This document shows, one piece after another, positions 555 through 7,848 of a stretch of 64,000 bases of DNA (its first letter is position 1; each line of letters opens with the position of its first letter). The stretch comes from Amycolatopsis thermoflava N1165 (lineage in GTDB: Bacteria; Actinomycetota; Actinomycetes; Mycobacteriales; Pseudonocardiaceae), in the NCBI RefSeq assembly GCF_000473265.1, contig NZ_KI421511.1, forward strand, positions 186,001 through 250,000, read 5' to 3'. Under the pieces are notes generated by a model. It worked only from the letters and a program-made list of their open reading frames with translations. It did no database searches and had not been told where the DNA came from. Position numbers and translations under genes: made by a program.

Positions 555-1028
555 ATGACGGGCATGTCGAGCGACGCACCGACCGCCGACGAGGCCGTCC
601 GCACCATGCTGCTGCTCCTGCCGCGGCTGGTCGGCCGCGCCAAGAAGCTGCCGGTGCCGGAGCGGCTGCGCGACTTCAACCTCGCCCCGCGGCACCTGTC
701 GCTGCTGTCCTACCTGCTGTTCGACGGGCCGATGACGGTCAACGAGCTGGCCGCGCGGCTCGAGGTCGCGCCCACCACCGTCAGCCTGATGGTCGGCGAC
801 CTCAGCCGCCGCGGGATCCTCGACCGCACCGAGGACGAGAGCGACCGGCGCCGCACGATCGTCAGCATCGCCGCGACCTACCGCGCCGAGGTCGAGGGCT
901 GGCTCGCCGCCGGCGCCCGCGCCTGGCGCACCGCCCTCGATCCGCTCACCCCCGAGCAGCGGCGCCTGGTCATCGACACGCTGCGCACCTACGAGCGTGA
1001 AGTCGAGCGAGACAGGACGCCCAGGTAG
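555..1028 (+). CDS. MarR family transcriptional regulator
   Basis: A 157-residue protein with a central winged helix: MTVNELAARLEVAPTTVSLM is the helix-turn-helix and the following DRRRTIVSI is the wing. The N- and C-terminal helices would form the dimer interface. An alternative ATG nine bases downstream (564) is possible. It is divergent from the PPOX gene and lies only 11 bases upstream of the SMC-like operon on the same strand. It could therefore control both the PPOX gene and, through cotranscription, the condensin-like genes. The ligand is unknown. Confidence 0.8.
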   Translation: MTGMSSDAPTADEAVRTMLLLLPRLVGRAKKLPVPERLRDFNLAPRHLSLLSYLLFDGPMTVNELAARLEVAPTTVSLMVGDLSRRGILDRTEDESDRRRTIVSIAATYRAEVEGWLAAGARAWRTALDPLTPEQRRLVIDTLRTYEREVERDRTPR

Positions 1029-1039
1029 TCTGGCGCGCT

Positions 1040-2515
1040 GTGCGTGACTCGGACCTGATCAGCGGGGGGCTGGTGGACGAGGGCCTGGCCCGGCGGCTCA
1101 AGGCGCTCGCCTGCACCGCGCCCCTGCACGACCTGGACGCGCGCAAGTCCAAGCTCGACTGGGCCGACGCCACCGTCTACCAGATGGCCGAGATCGCGTT
1201 GCACACGATCGACCTGGTCACCATCGCGATGGACTTCGACACCGGCGCCAACCACGACGACGTCGTCCGGCGCCTGCAGCCGTTCATCGCCGCACAGGCC
1301 CCGCGCCGCCCGGCCGAGGAGCACCTGCGCGTCGCCCGCTGGGTGCTGGACAACCTGATCAACGTCGGCACCACCGACCGCGGATTCCGCCGCGTCTACG
1401 GCAGCCTCGACGCGAACGGCACCTACCGGCGCCGCGCGTTCGACTTCAAACTGCTCGTCGAGCTGGCCGCACCCGACGGCGAGGTGTACCTGCGCGCCAG
1501 CGACGAGGCGATCAACGTGCTGGTCGGCGCGCTGGACACCGACGTGGAGTCCGCGCAGATCGCGGCCGAGGTCAAGCTGGAGAACCTGATCAGCCGCGGC
1601 CGCCTCGCCGACGCCAAGCTCGCCGCCGAGCAGGCCCGCTACCGCACCGTCCAGTACGGCGAGACGCTGCGCGCCAAGCTGGACGCCACCCGCCGCGACG
1701 TGCGGGCGGTGGACTGGGACCGCGAGATGCCCGAGCTGCTGGACTCGGCGCTGACCCACATCGAGGCCCGCTTCCGCGCGGAGAACGCGATCCTGCGCAA
1801 CATCACCGCCGCCCGCGACGAGGCCGAGGACGTCGACCACAAGCGTCGCGCCGCCGAGCTGGTCGACATCGTCAGCGACTGCATCAGCCGCCACACCCAG
1901 CTGCAGGCCCGGCTGCAGGCGGCGGGCGCGGTGTTCCGCGCCGAGCAGGACCGCCAGCAGTTCTCCGGCCCGCCGCAGCGCGCCACCGTCGACCTGTTCG
2001 GCCAGATCCTGATGCCCGCCCTGGAGCTGCCCATCGCCGACGCCGTCGCGCCGCTGGAGTCCTGGTTCCACGCGTCGGCAGGCCTGGTGGTGCCGACCGT
2101 GCCCGCGCTGCCGTCGCTGGTCTCGCTGCTGCTTCGGCCCGCGCCCGAGCGGGACAAGGTGGTCGGCGAGGTGCCGGAGCCGGAGCTCGTCCCGCCGGAG
2201 AGCCTCGACCACTACAGTGACGAGCAGTGGCGGCGGGCCGACGAGCTGCTGGACCTGCCGGAGGTGCCGCGGCGGCTGTCCGGCGTGCTGGCCGAGGCCC
2301 GCGAGCTCGACCCGGAGCTGCCGCGTCTGGTGGCGCTGCGGGCGCTGCACTCCTACAGTCCCGAGGTGGGTGCCGCCGTCCGGCAGGGGGACGATCGGGC
2401 GCTGCTCGCCGTCGACGACGGCACGCTGCTGGAGGACCCCGAGTTCGGGGGAGCCGACCTGCTGCTCAGCACAGCGCGGCTCGAACGCGAGGAAGACGAA
2501 GAGGGGGCGGCATGA
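1040..2515 (+). CDS. Kleisin-like (MksF/JetA-type) subunit of an SMC-like complex, putative
   Basis: A 491-residue, mainly alpha-helical soluble protein with a GTG start and only a weak ribosome binding site, 11 bases after the MarR stop. The N-terminal third (DNLINVGTTDRGFRRVYGSL, then FDFKLL and a strand ending YLRASDEAINVL) reads like the winged-helix start of MksF/JetA-type kleisins. The middle (roughly residues 170-300) is rich in long amphipathic helices with many alanine, arginine and glutamate residues. The C-terminus is acidic. The role is inferred mainly from operon position before a small subunit and a giant coiled-coil ATPase, the order typical of mksF-mksE-mksB and jetA-jetB-jetC. 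I do not recognise a named Pfam family with certainty. Confidence 0.55.
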   Translation: MRDSDLISGGLVDEGLARRLKALACTAPLHDLDARKSKLDWADATVYQMAEIALHTIDLVTIAMDFDTGANHDDVVRRLQPFIAAQAPRRPAEEHLRVARWVLDNLINVGTTDRGFRRVYGSLDANGTYRRRAFDFKLLVELAAPDGEVYLRASDEAINVLVGALDTDVESAQIAAEVKLENLISRGRLADAKLAAEQARYRTVQYGETLRAKLDATRRDVRAVDWDREMPELLDSALTHIEARFRAENAILRNITAARDEAEDVDHKRRAAELVDIVSDCISRHTQLQARLQAAGAVFRAEQDRQQFSGPPQRATVDLFGQILMPALELPIADAVAPLESWFHASAGLVVPTVPALPSLVSLLLRPAPERDKVVGEVPEPELVPPESLDHYSDEQWRRADELLDLPEVPRRLSGVLAEARELDPELPRLVALRALHSYSPEVGAAVRQGDDRALLAVDDGTLLEDPEFGGADLLLSTARLEREEDEEGAA

Positions 2516-2601
2516 GGACTGCTTGCAGGTCCGAATCATTCAGCGCCATGCCTGCCGAGGCACTGCCGCGGCTTGCCGCGTCCGTTGAGGGGGCGGCATG
2601 A
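2501..2601 (+). repeat. 15-bp direct repeat bracketing a short insertion at a gene junction
   Basis: GAGGGGGCGGCATGA occurs at 2501-2515 and again at 2587-2601, exactly 86 bases apart. The first copy carries the stop of the kleisin-like gene and the second carries the ribosome binding site and start of the next gene. Removing one copy plus the 71 bases between them would restore an ATGA stop-start overlap, the usual junction in this genome. The 71-base spacer has no convincing gene. Confidence 0.85.
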
Positions 2602-3398
2602 CGCGTCCGGTCACGACCGGGGACGCCGAGAACGCGGCACGGCTGATCTCGTTCGGGATGCGGCCCAAGCACCTGCCCTCGCGCGACGTCGTCTACGCCG
2701 ATCTGGTCCGCCGCTACGGCGAGGACAGCGCGTTCAAGCAGCTGACCAACTCGGTCGCCGCGGGGCTGGGCCTGATGGTGCTCGACGTGAGCCACCAGGC
2801 GGGCGCGGTGCTGGCCGCCACCGACGAGTCGGTGTTCGAGGTCAAGATGGACAGCTACGCGCGGCAGAGCAAGATCCGCGAGCGCCGCGACACCGAGAAG
2901 GTGCTGCACGGCCTCGTGCACCTCGCCACCGCCGCGCTGGGCTACCCGCGCCCGGACGACCTGGCCAACGACACCTACATCGGCCGGGTCAGCGTCGACC
3001 AGGTGGACGGCGTGGTGCGTGAGGCGTGCCGGATCCTCGACGAGCGCGCCGCGAAGGCCGAGGCCAACAACGACCCGCTGTCCGACTCGCCGGAGCTGGA
3101 ACAGGCCTGGCGCGCCTACGCCCGCCGTCCCGAAGCGGCGGCCACCAAGGACGGCCGACTGGCCTCGGACACCACCCGCGGCATGGTGTCCCGCGCGCTG
3201 CGGTTCCTGGCCGACCAGGGGTTCCTGGTGCAGGTCAGCGGCGAGCAGGGCGGCACCTACCGGACCACGCCGCGCTACCAGGTGCAGGTGCGGGAACTGG
3301 CCGCGGACAGCGCGTTCGAGGAGCTGCTGGCCCTCGGCGTGGTCGCGGTCTCCGACGGCGAGGGCACGCTGCGCCCGTCCATTTCGGACACTCTGTAG
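2598..3398 (+). CDS. MksE/JetB-like small subunit of an SMC-like complex, putative
   Basis: A 266-residue protein starting at ATG 2598, preceded by GAGGGGGC. The opening (FGMRPKHLPSRDVVYADLVR) is followed by two globular, helix-rich segments. The second (TRGMVSRALRFLADQGFLVQ, then YRTTPRYQVQVREL) looks like a winged helix: recognition-type helix, then a beta wing. Tandem winged-helix proteins of this size are the MksE/JetB partners in condensin-like complexes. It ends 10 bases before the start of the SMC-like ATPase, so translation is probably coupled. Function is inferred from size, fold-like pattern and context. Confidence 0.55.
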   Translation: MTRPVTTGDAENAARLISFGMRPKHLPSRDVVYADLVRRYGEDSAFKQLTNSVAAGLGLMVLDVSHQAGAVLAATDESVFEVKMDSYARQSKIRERRDTEKVLHGLVHLATAALGYPRPDDLANDTYIGRVSVDQVDGVVREACRILDERAAKAEANNDPLSDSPELEQAWRAYARRPEAAATKDGRLASDTTRGMVSRALRFLADQGFLVQVSGEQGGTYRTTPRYQVQVRELAADSAFEELLALGVVAVSDGEGTLRPSISDTL

Positions 3399-3408
3399 GG
3401 GGAGATCG

Positions 3409-6400
3409 GTGTACGAGCTTTCGCGGGTGCGCCTGCACTCCGTCGGTCCGGCGGGCGCGCGCTACCAGAACGTGCTGCTGGACTTCAGCGGCGTCGGCCC
3501 GCTGGTCAAGGCGCCGGCGCAGGACGCGTTGTTCACCGCCGGGATCCACTCCGCCGACGGCAGCCTGCCGCGGCGGCCGTCCCCGGCGAGCGTGCTGTTC
3601 CTGGAGAACGGCGGCGGGAAGTCGGTGCTGATCAAGCTGATCTTCTCGGTCATGCTGCCCGGGCGGCGCCAGGTGGTGGGCACCACCAGCACGCGCGTGC
3701 TGGAGAAGTTCGTGATGGCCAAGGACGTCGCGCACGTCGTCCTGGAGTGGCAGCACACCGAGACCGGGCAGCGGGTGATCACCGGCAAGGTGTCGGAGTG
3801 GCGCGGGCACGTCGTGTCGAACGACCCGGCGAACCTGGTCGACTCGTGGTACTGCTTCCGGCCCACCGCCGCGCTCGGGCTGGAGTCGCTGCCGTTCACC
3901 GAGGACGGCCGCCTGCTGACCATGTCCGGGTTCGCCGAGCAGCTGGAGCGCGCGCACAAGGCCGAGCCGGAGCTGGAGCTGTTCACCACCCGCCGCCACC
4001 ACGAGTGGACCGAGCGGCTGGACACCCTGGGCCTGGACACCGAGCTGTTCCGTTACCAGCGCGCGATGAACGCCGGCGAGGGTGAGGCGGCCGACGCGTT
4101 CGCGTTCACCTCCGACGAGGCGTTCGTCGAGTTCCTGCTGCGTGCGGTGATCCCCGAGGACGACCCGAAGGACCTGGCCGAGGTCGTGCAGACCTACGCG
4201 CACAACCTCGGGCAGCGCGGCGAGCTGATGTCCGAACGCGACTTCGTAGCCGGGGCGCTGGACCTGCTCACGCCGCTCACCGAGGAGGAGTCGCTCGCCG
4301 CCGCGTCCCGCAAACTCGCCGCGGTCGCACGCGAGGAGGCCCGCGCGCTGGCCGGATCGGTGATCGCGCGGCACGAGCTGGAGGCGGAGCGCCTCGACGG
4401 GTTGAAGTCCTATGTGGACGAGACGCGGGACGCGGAGAAACTGGCCGAGGGCGACTGCCGGCGCCGCAACGCCGTCGTCACCGAACTGCGCCGCGTGGTC
4501 GGGGAGATGCGGCTGGCCGACGCGACCGCGGAGAAGGCGCGGATCGACGAGGAGCTGGCGAAGGCACGCGAGGCCGCGGCCGCGTGGCGCGAGACCGGCA
4601 CCGTGCTCGCGCACGTGAACGCCGCGCGGAAGGCGACGGACATCCGCAAGCTCGTGGGCGACCGCGAGCAGAGCGCGAAACCGGCCCTGGAAGCCAAGAA
4701 CGCGGCCGCCACCGCGCTCGCCCGCGGCCTGCTCGCGCTGGCGCGGGAGGCCGAGGAGCAGGCGCAGGCCGCCGAGGCCCGCGCGGAGACCGCCCGCACC
4801 GCCGCCGCGGCCGCGCAGGACCAGCGGGACGCGGCCACCGCCACCGCCGCCGGGCACCGCGCCGAACTGGGGCAGCTGACCCGCCGCATCGAGGAGGTGC
4901 GCGCGCAGGTGCAGCAGGCCGTCCGCGACGGGCTGCTCAGCGACGGCACCCAGGTCGCCGCCGCCGCGCAGGAGGCGCGCACGCGCGGCGAGAACGCGAG
5001 CACCGAGCTGGCGGCGCGGGAGAGCGAACTCGAAGGGGTCGCCGAGGACCACGCCCAGGCGCAGGCCGCCTTGCACGCCGCGCAACAGCGGGCCGCGACC
5101 GCGCGGTCCCGGGCGGCCCACGCTGCCGAGGAACTGGCGAAGGCGCACCGGCGCTCGGACAGCCTCGCCGCGCACCCACGGCTGCTGGAGCTGCTCGGCG
5201 GCGACAACGTCCAGCTGGAGACCGACACGCCCGCGCTGCTGACGCGGCTGCGCGAGGCGCGCGCCACCGCGGAACGCGAGCAGACTGCCCTGCGCATGGA
5301 GGAGTCGGTGGACGAACGGGCGCTGGCGGCGCTCGGCTCCGGTGGGCTGCTGCCCGCGCCGCCGGAGGTCCAGTCCGCTTTGGACGTTCTGGAGGCGGCC
5401 GGGATCACCGCGTGGTCGGGCTGGCGCTATCTGTCCACGATGGACGCCGCAGGCCGCGAGCGCGTGTTGCGGGACCTGCCGCACCTGCTCGGCGGGGTGC
5501 TCGTCAACGACCCGGCGCAGCTGGACCGCGCACGGCAGGTGCTCGCCGACGCCAAGCTCCTGCCGAGCGTGGTGCTGCCGGTCGGCACCACGCAGGCGGT
5601 GCGGGCGCCAGGTGCGGCGCCGGGCGTGGACTTCCTGGTCCCGCCCAACCCCGCGATGTACGACGAGGAGGCGGCCGACACCGAGCGCCAGGCCATCGCC
5701 GCCCGGCACGCCCGCCGCCAGAAGCAGCTCGAAGCGCTCACCGAAGCGATCGGCGACGACGCCGCGCTGGAGTGGAAGCTCACCACGTGGCGCGAGGACT
5801 ACCCGCCCGGCGCGCTGGCCACCCTCGCCGAGGAGGCCGAGGCCGCGGCCACCGAGCAGACCGAGGCCGAAGCCGCGGTGGTCGCCCAGGAGCGCGCGCT
5901 GGCCGATCTGGCCGCGCGCCGCACCCGGCTGCGGGAGGCGATCCCGGCCCTGCGTGCCGAGGCGCGTGACAGCGAGGTACGCGCCCGCAAGCTGGCCGAG
6001 CTGGCCGAGCGGGTCGCGCTGATTCCACAGTGGACTGAGACGGTCGAGCGCGCGCAGGAGATCGTCACGCGCGCCGAGGCCGAGGCTGAGCAGGCGGCGT
6101 CGCGCGCGGCCCGGCTGCGCGAGGAAGCGGCCGAAGAGCAGCGCACCGCCGACGGCCACCGCCGCACGGTCACCCATGCCCGCGCCGAGCTGGCCGAGGT
6201 GCCGGGCGGGGGATCGGTGTCCGAGGACGAGCCGGTGCCGAGCGAACCGGTCGACGCGCTGCGCCGGGCGTTCGCCGCGGCCAGCGACGCCTACGCCCGT
6301 GTCGAGGTCGGCAGCGACCTGCGGGCCGAGCTGGACCAGGCGGAGAGCGCCGAGTCCACGGCGCGGGCGGCCCTGGAGGCGCTGGACCCGGCGGTGCGGG

Positions 6401-7848
6401 AGCAGGCGGCGCGCCTGCTGGAGACCCCGGACGGGTCGGACGCCGCGACCCGCGCGGCCGCCCTGGCGCGGGCCGGGCGCACGGTGTCCGCGCTGGAGGC
6501 CGAGCACAGCGAGGCGATCGGCCTGGTCGCGACCTGCAAGGCCGAACTGGACCAGCTGCCGAAGCAGAACGCGTCGCTGGAGACCCGGCCGCGCGACGTC
6601 GAGCACGGCCGCGAGCTGATCGACGAGGCCGTCGAGGAGGCGTCGGCCGCGGCCCGCGCGCTGGAGGAGGCGCAGGCGCGGCGCGCGGAGGCCGAGCGCA
6701 CGCTGGAGGCGGCCACCGCATCGGCGGCCGGGTTCAAGATGCTCGCCGAGTCGATGGCGCACTTGGCCCCAGAGGGCGAGCCGGAGACCGTGTTCGACGG
6801 CGACGTGGAAGCCGCGCAGGCCCGCTACCGCAAGCTGAACACGACGCTGACCGACGCCGAGGCGGCCGTCGACGCCGCAGAGAAGCGGGTGCGGGCGGCG
6901 GCGGACGCGCTTGCCCAGTACGCCACGGACAAGCGGTTCGAGAAGCTGACCAGCCCGGTGCGGCAGCAGATCGTGTCGGTGCGCCGGGACAGCCTGCCCG
7001 CGCACGCGCGGGAGTGGTCGGCCGCGCTGAAGCCGCGGCTGCGCACCCTGACCGACGACCTGGCGCAGATCGACCGGCACCGGTCCGGGATCGTCGCGCG
7101 GCTGCAGGGCATGGTCGAGGGCGCGCTGCGGATGCTGCGGTCGGCGCAACGGCTGTCGCGGCTGCCGGAGGGGCTCGGCGGCTGGTCCGGGCAGGAGTTC
7201 CTGCGCATCCGGTTCGGCGATCCGGAGGAGCCGCAGCTGTCCGAGGCGCTCGGGCAGGTCGTCGACGAGGCGGCGGTCGGGAAGACCAGCGACGGCCGGG
7301 ACGTCAAGCGCGACGGGATGTCGCTGGTGCTGCGTGGCGTGCGGGCCGCGGTGCCCAAGGGGTTCCGGGTGGACATCCTCAAGCCGGACTCGGTGCTGCG
7401 CACGGAACGCCAGCGGGTGTCCGAGATCCGCGACGTGTTCTCCGGCGGGCAGCAGCTCACCGCGGCGATCATCCTGTACTGCACGCTGGCCGCGCTGCGG
7501 GCCAACAACCGCGGGCTGGTGCGCAACCGGCACTCCGGTGTGCTGTTCCTGGACAACCCGATCGGCCGCGCGTCCGCCGGGTACCTGCTGGAGCTGCAGC
7601 GGGTCGTCGCGGAGGCGCTCGGGGTGCAGCTGATCTACACGACGGGCCTGTTCGACGCCGGCGCGCTGTCCGAGTTCCCGCTGATCGTCCGGCTGCGCAA
7701 CGACGCGGACCTCCGGGCGGGCCGCAAGTACCTCTCGGTCGACGCGACGATCCGCAACCACCTCGACGACCTGGGCGAGCCGGACGGCACCGCCCGCATC
7801 TCCGCGACGCGGCTGTTCACCAAGCCGGGGGAGCAGGCCCCCGCCTGA
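3409..7848 (+). CDS. SMC/MksB/JetC-like coiled-coil ATPase
   Basis: A 1479-residue protein. The start is GTG 3409, chosen because GGGGGAG lies just upstream and the preceding gene stops at 3398. Residues 67-72 (NGGGKS) are the Walker A motif. Long alanine/glutamate/arginine heptads form two coiled-coil arms, about residues 290-585 and 760-1210, separated by a globular hinge-like region at about 590-755 (contains AAGITAWSGWRYL). The C-terminal head has the ABC signature SGGQ at 1345-1348 and Walker B VLFLDN, with Asp1382 followed by Asn1383 where SMC and Rad50 proteins have the catalytic Glu. The head-arm-hinge-arm-head plan is that of SMC/MukB/MksB ATPases that load on DNA. The expected partners precede it; no JetD/MksG-like nuclease follows. 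Confidence 0.8.
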   Translation: MYELSRVRLHSVGPAGARYQNVLLDFSGVGPLVKAPAQDALFTAGIHSADGSLPRRPSPASVLFLENGGGKSVLIKLIFSVMLPGRRQVVGTTSTRVLEKFVMAKDVAHVVLEWQHTETGQRVITGKVSEWRGHVVSNDPANLVDSWYCFRPTAALGLESLPFTEDGRLLTMSGFAEQLERAHKAEPELELFTTRRHHEWTERLDTLGLDTELFRYQRAMNAGEGEAADAFAFTSDEAFVEFLLRAVIPEDDPKDLAEVVQTYAHNLGQRGELMSERDFVAGALDLLTPLTEEESLAAASRKLAAVAREEARALAGSVIARHELEAERLDGLKSYVDETRDAEKLAEGDCRRRNAVVTELRRVVGEMRLADATAEKARIDEELAKAREAAAAWRETGTVLAHVNAARKATDIRKLVGDREQSAKPALEAKNAAATALARGLLALAREAEEQAQAAEARAETARTAAAAAQDQRDAATATAAGHRAELGQLTRRIEEVRAQVQQAVRDGLLSDGTQVAAAAQEARTRGENASTELAARESELEGVAEDHAQAQAALHAAQQRAATARSRAAHAAEELAKAHRRSDSLAAHPRLLELLGGDNVQLETDTPALLTRLREARATAEREQTALRMEESVDERALAALGSGGLLPAPPEVQSALDVLEAAGITAWSGWRYLSTMDAAGRERVLRDLPHLLGGVLVNDPAQLDRARQVLADAKLLPSVVLPVGTTQAVRAPGAAPGVDFLVPPNPAMYDEEAADTERQAIAARHARRQKQLEALTEAIGDDAALEWKLTTWREDYPPGALATLAEEAEAAATEQTEAEAAVVAQERALADLAARRTRLREAIPALRAEARDSEVRARKLAELAERVALIPQWTETVERAQEIVTRAEAEAEQAASRAARLREEAAEEQRTADGHRRTVTHARAELAEVPGGGSVSEDEPVPSEPVDALRRAFAAASDAYARVEVGSDLRAELDQAESAESTARAALEALDPAVREQAARLLETPDGSDAATRAAALARAGRTVSALEAEHSEAIGLVATCKAELDQLPKQNASLETRPRDVEHGRELIDEAVEEASAAARALEEAQARRAEAERTLEAATASAAGFKMLAESMAHLAPEGEPETVFDGDVEAAQARYRKLNTTLTDAEAAVDAAEKRVRAAADALAQYATDKRFEKLTSPVRQQIVSVRRDSLPAHAREWSAALKPRLRTLTDDLAQIDRHRSGIVARLQGMVEGALRMLRSAQRLSRLPEGLGGWSGQEFLRIRFGDPEEPQLSEALGQVVDEAAVGKTSDGRDVKRDGMSLVLRGVRAAVPKGFRVDILKPDSVLRTERQRVSEIRDVFSGGQQLTAAIILYCTLAALRANNRGLVRNRHSGVLFLDNPIGRASAGYLLELQRVVAEALGVQLIYTTGLFDAGALSEFPLIVRLRNDADLRAGRKYLSVDATIRNHLDDLGEPDGTARISATRLFTKPGEQAPA

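Follow-up and report, generated by a model that had tools for sequence, protein, structure and literature searches.

Smc-ScpAB complexes are built from an SMC ATPase, a kleisin and a KITE protein. Kleisin, KITE and SMC subunits, with no nuclease, make up the MksBEF condensin of Pseudomonas aeruginosa, and the type III Wadjet system (JetABCD) includes the nuclease JetD. The corynebacterial MksBEFG complex, a Wadjet system, is an actinobacterial SMC complex of like kind, which possesses the nuclease MksG and has a reported anti-plasmid activity (PMC10123090). Mycobacterial MksB, an Mks condensin homologue from an actinobacterium that we liken to the present locus by description rather than by sequence comparison, forms clusters closely associated with replisomes according to the accessible text of a 2026 Streptomyces SMC paper, a text that leaves Wadjet unmentioned (PMC13121528). 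A survey of actinobacterial defence places Wadjet in 42% of Actinobacteria, mostly towards Streptomyces chromosome ends, and in its accessible part does not separate JetD-bearing from JetD-less systems (PMC10482375); excerpts of further related literature are PMC12647877 and PMC10512200. A published account of a JetD-less actinobacterial type III set was not found in our literature search, the scope of which left most subscription papers and preprints outside.

We analyzed a stretch of 64,000 nucleotides from Amycolatopsis thermoflava N1165, referred to as the window, which contains a locus with the following features:

555..1028, + strand: marR regulator, a lineage-specific neighbour (Pfam MarR_2, E 3e-11)
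1040..2515, + strand: jetA of type III Wadjet, named a kleisin subunit after its family (491 aa; PADLOC PDLC00567, JetA3)
2512..2601, + strand: 29-codon bridging ORF at the jetA-jetB junction, with an ATGA overlap at each end
2598..3398, + strand: jetB, putative KITE subunit (266 aa; predicted fold KITE-like)
3409..7848, + strand: jetC, an SMC-like ATPase of type III Wadjet (1479 aa; PADLOC PDLC00588, JetC3)

An earlier note on this DNA had given the span of the operon, protein sizes and an 11-base gap between marR and jetA, all of which hold; the gap between jetB and jetC is 10 bases. It also had the three genes following one another, and the order stands, with the small correction that the 29-codon ORF lies between jetA and jetB. 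To the left of the operon, an oxygenase gene (PF09859), a glycosyltransferase gene and a response regulator gene are nearest, with whiA and a CofD-family gene, which we take to be yvcK, beyond them; gap, pgk and tpi lie to the right. The oxygenase gene, at L001:19350-19919, is left of the window and stands before a PPOX gene that adjoins the operon, and its family is described as acting on damaged DNA.

Profile comparisons place JetA and JetC in type III Wadjet families. JetA matched the PADLOC JetA3 model with an E value of 1.5e-209 and 695 bits, and JetC matched the JetC3 model, which PADLOC describes as DUF3584, over residues 1-1476 with an E value of 0 and 1959 bits. JetB matched the JetB3 model weakly (E 0.021); when its predicted fold was compared with PDB chains, the nearest ones belonged to entries for Wadjet JetABC and MukEF/MukBEF, which points to a KITE protein. 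In searches of PDB sequences, JetA (E<=1) and JetC (E<=0.01) had no relative and JetB had two chance-level matches (E 0.38 and 0.83), and a search of PHROGs returned nothing. The locus is distinct from Smc-ScpAB: JetC scored 23.9 bits on the SMC_prok_B model, against a cut-off of 567.35, and the genome carries a separate Smc that reaches 983 bits on the SMC model. Thus, the SMC operon of the Mks/Wadjet kind perceived in the earlier note is substantiated, and the structure prediction it proposed as a check agrees for JetB; the note had missed that the set is of Wadjet type III. The kleisin-KITE-SMC gene order without a nuclease, with JetA a kleisin by family, is also that of Pseudomonas MksBEF, which comes from another lineage and is likened here by architecture rather than by direct sequence comparison. 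By analogy, we propose that it may serve as a precedent for a nuclease-free condensin.

The JetC of the window carries NGGGKS, FSGGQ and LDNP motifs. NGGGKS is present in 75 of 79 further JetC frames that we fetched, and the four that lack it (L140, L141, L160 and L161) all belong to JetD-bearing loci. LDNP forms the Walker B motif in 77 of 80 JetC sequences, window included, in JetD-bearing and JetD-less loci alike; among the three exceptions, L127 and L154 carry LDNP in another frame and L159 runs off its contig. SMC ATPases have a catalytic glutamate at the position where this motif has asparagine, and the asparagine raises the question of ATP hydrolysis by type III Wadjet. The jetC genes of L127 (G073) and L154 (G529) shift frame internally, possibly through sequencing error. 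A frame of 1831 residues in L127 joins the first part of JetC to JetD, and we rejected it as a fusion, the JetC head motifs being in a different frame from this long ORF.

The bridging ORF varies among congeners. It has no counterpart in L047, L049, L052 and L063, where jetA and jetB overlap directly, it occurs at equal length in L048, L050 and L051, and different short inserts occupy the junction in L053, L054, L058, L060 and L064. A second copy (77%), encoding a peptide with a similar ending, lies at G000:C1:6340096-6340179, also at an ATGA gene junction, and a third, partial match lies at C1:6425028-6425070. One possibility is that the ORF is a small element whose insertion into stop-start overlaps preserves the coupling.

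The type III Wadjet system includes JetD, in the operon or elsewhere in the genome, and we found it in neither place. The Pfam profile PF09983 detected no JetD in the whole genome at E<=1; as a control, it matched Corynebacterium glutamicum and Bacillus subtilis, one of them over the cut-off. The type III JetD model, PDLC00594, likewise detected none in the whole genome at E<=0.001, a model that matches 0 of 14 control genomes. With a profile that we built from 27 JetD proteins, neither the window nor the adjoining 20 kb on the left gave a match at E<=10; the profile scores L126 at E 1.6e-122 and L192 at E 3.7e-126, matches that are not independent controls because both loci are among the 27 sequences. 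The earlier note had seen no JetD beside the operon and had called for a genome-wide search, and on both counts no JetD was found. A JetD just beyond the left edge of the window, which the note had named as counting against it, does not occur, since none was found in the 20 kb leftward.

We asked how the nuclease-free locus is distributed within its genus. JetA is present in 19 of 19 genomes, the window's included, at 86-100% identity, and jetABC precedes gap in the window, as it does in 18/18 fetched congeners, with the gap match starting 8.3 to 12.9 kb from the start of jetA. Across 31 of 34 given loci, one of which (L126) has JetD, distances between Jet proteins followed those of gap+pgk, with Mantel r of 0.894 for JetA, 0.761 for JetB and 0.897 for JetC and no permutation as high in 2000 for any of them; r between gap and pgk was 0.687. 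Mean distances were 0.159, 0.118 and 0.252 for JetA, JetB and JetC, and 0.153 for gap+pgk.

Pairwise dN/dS, computed for 8 of the 18 congeners, ranged over 0.012-0.232 for JetA, 0-0.156 for JetB and 0.055-0.207 for JetC. The glycolytic genes gave 0.026-0.178 (gap), 0-0.170 (tpi) and 0.092-0.239 (pgk), with pgk and tpi not found in one congener, and the neighbours gave 0.174-0.388 (LysE) and 0.161-0.408 (MarR, six comparisons, the gene not being found in two congeners). For the two farthest congeners, JetA (0.203 and 0.232) exceeded gap (0.166 and 0.141). The jetABC genes are therefore under purifying selection, with a constraint similar to that on glycolytic genes, and they are a vertically inherited core locus of the genus, neither broken nor a stray copy, a point that the earlier note had missed. 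The marR gene is another matter. The earlier note placed it in the unit and read it as a sign of induction by a small molecule; gene and position hold, but 11 of 19 genus genomes have MarR, the window's among them, as do 2 of the 80 named relatives, and it is under looser constraint than jetABC. We therefore rejected it as a constant part and regard it as a neighbour, so that small-molecule induction does not characterise the system.

These data bear on whether the locus is the remnant of a Wadjet operon that has lost JetD and is disappearing. The nuclease gene is gone, and outside the genus jetC is split between frames in L154 and JetC is short in L158 (1187 aa, motifs kept). In the genus, however, JetC of all 19 loci has a length of 1475-1488 aa and keeps the three ATPase motifs, and the low dN/dS opposes decay. 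Nor was any JetD remnant accepted 3' of jetC in JetD-less loci. Among the candidates, matches to L192 (residues 1-35 to 1-55), to L130 on L167 and to L129 on L200 were read as the 3' end of jetC in another frame because their start precedes the likely start of JetD; the L127 matches proved to be the end of that locus's own JetD, and a marginal match of the L137 query on L061 (E 0.006) was not counted. For the genus we reject decay, and we regard it as scarcely credible overall.

JetD occurs among relatives in a pattern that depends on JetA identity. With JetA as the sole query, 101 of 297 genomes in a family sample had a match, and 66 of the 297 had JetD3, 38 of them strongly. Counting JetD3 as adjacent when within 9 kb of the JetA position, we used 109 JetA rows, having dropped two fragments (one a further piece in G175, the other a match of 40 residues in G150), and 38 JetD rows with E values of 2.9e-38 or better. 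Adjacent JetD3 was present at 1/69 loci with JetA identity of at least 70%, at 11/14 with 60-69%, at 2/2 with 40-59% and at 21/24 below 40%, so that 34 of 40 loci below 70% have it. The 80 named relatives divide into 9 with JetD after jetC, 63 without JetD and 8 that could not be judged. The accessory operons of two congeners (L065 and L066) have jetA, jetB, jetC and jetD consecutively, and in A. rifamycinica (L192), deep within the JetD-less clade, JetD directly follows jetC.

The locus could instead recruit another nuclease, or borrow the JetD of a second system where one is present. Ten of the 68 loci with at least 70% identity and no adjacent JetD3 are in genomes with a strong JetD3 elsewhere, and weak JetD3 matches, left out of the adjacency count, occur in the core-clade genomes G011, G154, G249, G261 and G267. 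At E<=0.1, PF09983 matched in 7 of 19 genus genomes, five over the cut-off (G015, G011, G004, G007 and G001). Other Wadjet types may be present in G015 and G004, because type III JetD was not detected there at E<=0.001. Conserved surfaces are also kept: JetD-bearing-conserved columns lost in both JetD-less lineages numbered 0/486, 0/263 and 0/1391 (19 JetD-bearing, 32 Streptomyces and 77 Pseudonocardiaceae rows), which gives no visible sign that a possible JetD-binding surface has been released. Against such a nuclease in trans, the window's genome is without JetD by two models, 12 of 19 genus genomes have no PF09983 match, no strong JetD3 occurs in the genomes of 58 of the 68 loci, and of the 10 strong JetD3 proteins elsewhere, 9 adjoin another jetA. 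A common replacement partner is not seen beside the loci either, since at E<=1e-12 the 18 Pseudonocardiaceae loci and the 16 Streptomyces loci compared had no non-jet family in common; in a comparison with 5 loci of family f20, three genes of the Pseudonocardiaceae loci matched, one of them in 3/5. On balance, we hold this explanation to be quite improbable.

The distribution extends to Streptomyces. In a class sample, 60 of 394 genomes had a JetA match, and in genus g71, sampled at one genome per species and again queried with JetA alone, 147 of 150 had one, a single match being only distant. We take g71 for Streptomyces, since the JetA tree places its loci among those of named Streptomyces. 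PDLC00594 (E<=1e-10), the sole JetD search there and one that leaves room for other JetD types, found JetD3 in 11 of the 150 genomes: in all ten with at least two JetA matches and in 1 of the remaining 137 with JetA. Among 27 named Streptomyces and Actinacidiphila loci, 21 are JetD-less and 6 could not be judged. A JetA without JetD3 is thus present in nearly all sampled Streptomyces genomes, which the earlier note had missed. A gene that we take to be LamB/YcsF-like lies upstream in 33 of 38 fetched loci, query locus included, and is missing at L143, L148, L149, L153 and L222; a carboxyltransferase gene (PF02626) is beside it in most loci, and a GntR gene occurs in 26 of 38.

Phylogenies of JetA and JetD suggest how this distribution arose. 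A first JetA tree of 81 rows required 8 changes of JetD state, 4 of them forced. A tree of 145 rows, made by a quick method with several long branches, identical JetA rows entered once and 11 rows stateless for JetD (jetC split, cut, missing or at a contig end), required at least 9 changes, 6 of them forced by starred branches; such counts cannot tell gain from loss. All seven outgroup rows have JetD. For 25 JetD-bearing loci, we compared JetA and JetD trees: a single starred clade in each tree unites L126 (Tamaricihabitans), L192 (A. rifamycinica) and L130/L152/L216, and no starred conflict between the two was seen. JetD was therefore mostly co-inherited with jetABC, given that the trees share well-supported clades, and repeated loss of JetD is the likeliest history. 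In A. rifamycinica, JetD may have been regained late: it is divergent (44% identity at best to others) and stands beside a JetA that is almost that of JetD-less sisters.

We favor the reading that an anti-plasmid loop extruder, having lost JetD in an ancestor, has been domesticated into a second, nuclease-free condensin that is inherited as part of the core genome, to which we assign a probability of about 0.58. An ancestral type III Wadjet would have lost JetD, the jetABC motor being retained by vertical inheritance. JetC dimers, with the kleisin JetA and the KITE protein JetB, would load onto chromosomal DNA and extrude loops under ATP, by homology without cutting, thereby adding a second, non-cutting condensin activity beside that of the ordinary Smc. 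A chromosome-organising rather than an immune role would fit best, because the motor is constant, constrained, vertically inherited and present beside Smc. The earlier note had left three options, and the evidence favors its chromosome-acting condensin over a nuclease-free defence or a nuclease in trans. Points against the condensin reading are the JetD of A. rifamycinica, the PF09983 genes of seven congeners, the JetA dN/dS above that of gap for the two farthest congeners, and the conserved columns, which are not released.

The main rival is immunity without a nuclease, in which JetABC would still recognise small circular DNA through extrusion and would stop plasmids or phages by compacting, silencing or missegregating them rather than by cleavage. 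Close JetD-bearing relatives are Wadjet systems, some genomes hold a second, complete JetABCD in the manner of stacked defences, and no conserved column distinguishes the JetD-less lineages jointly; vertical inheritance, moreover, is compatible with a fixed immune function. Defence genes are usually patchy, however, and this locus occurs in all 19 genomes of the genus and in almost all Streptomyces genomes sampled. JetA matched 5 of 72,556 plasmid records, none at 60% identity or above, and no phage record; the best plasmid match, at 55.5%, is on a Rhodococcus plasmid where an annotated JetD is the fourth gene of a row starting with jetA. We consider this rival unlikely. The locus shares with type III Wadjet its near full-length JetA3 and JetC3 matches, gene order and KITE-like predicted JetB fold, and differs from it in the lack of JetD, in being a core locus of the genus and in the plasmid record.

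Defence-annotation tools would probably label the operon an incomplete Wadjet, because its proteins match PADLOC models. More broadly, and tentatively enough that we regard it as somewhat doubtful, filamentous actinomycetes including Streptomyces may have a second condensin that has gone unrecognised, namely a type III Wadjet motor fixed in the core genome after several independent losses of the nuclease, which would organise or segregate the chromosomes of multi-genome hyphae or spores. If true, a major model group would have an overlooked SMC complex, the nuclease-free core motor of nearly all Streptomyces species. JetD-bearing and JetD-less orthologs exist side by side, even within Amycolatopsis, and the change from an immune system to a chromosome organiser would then be open to study within one clade.
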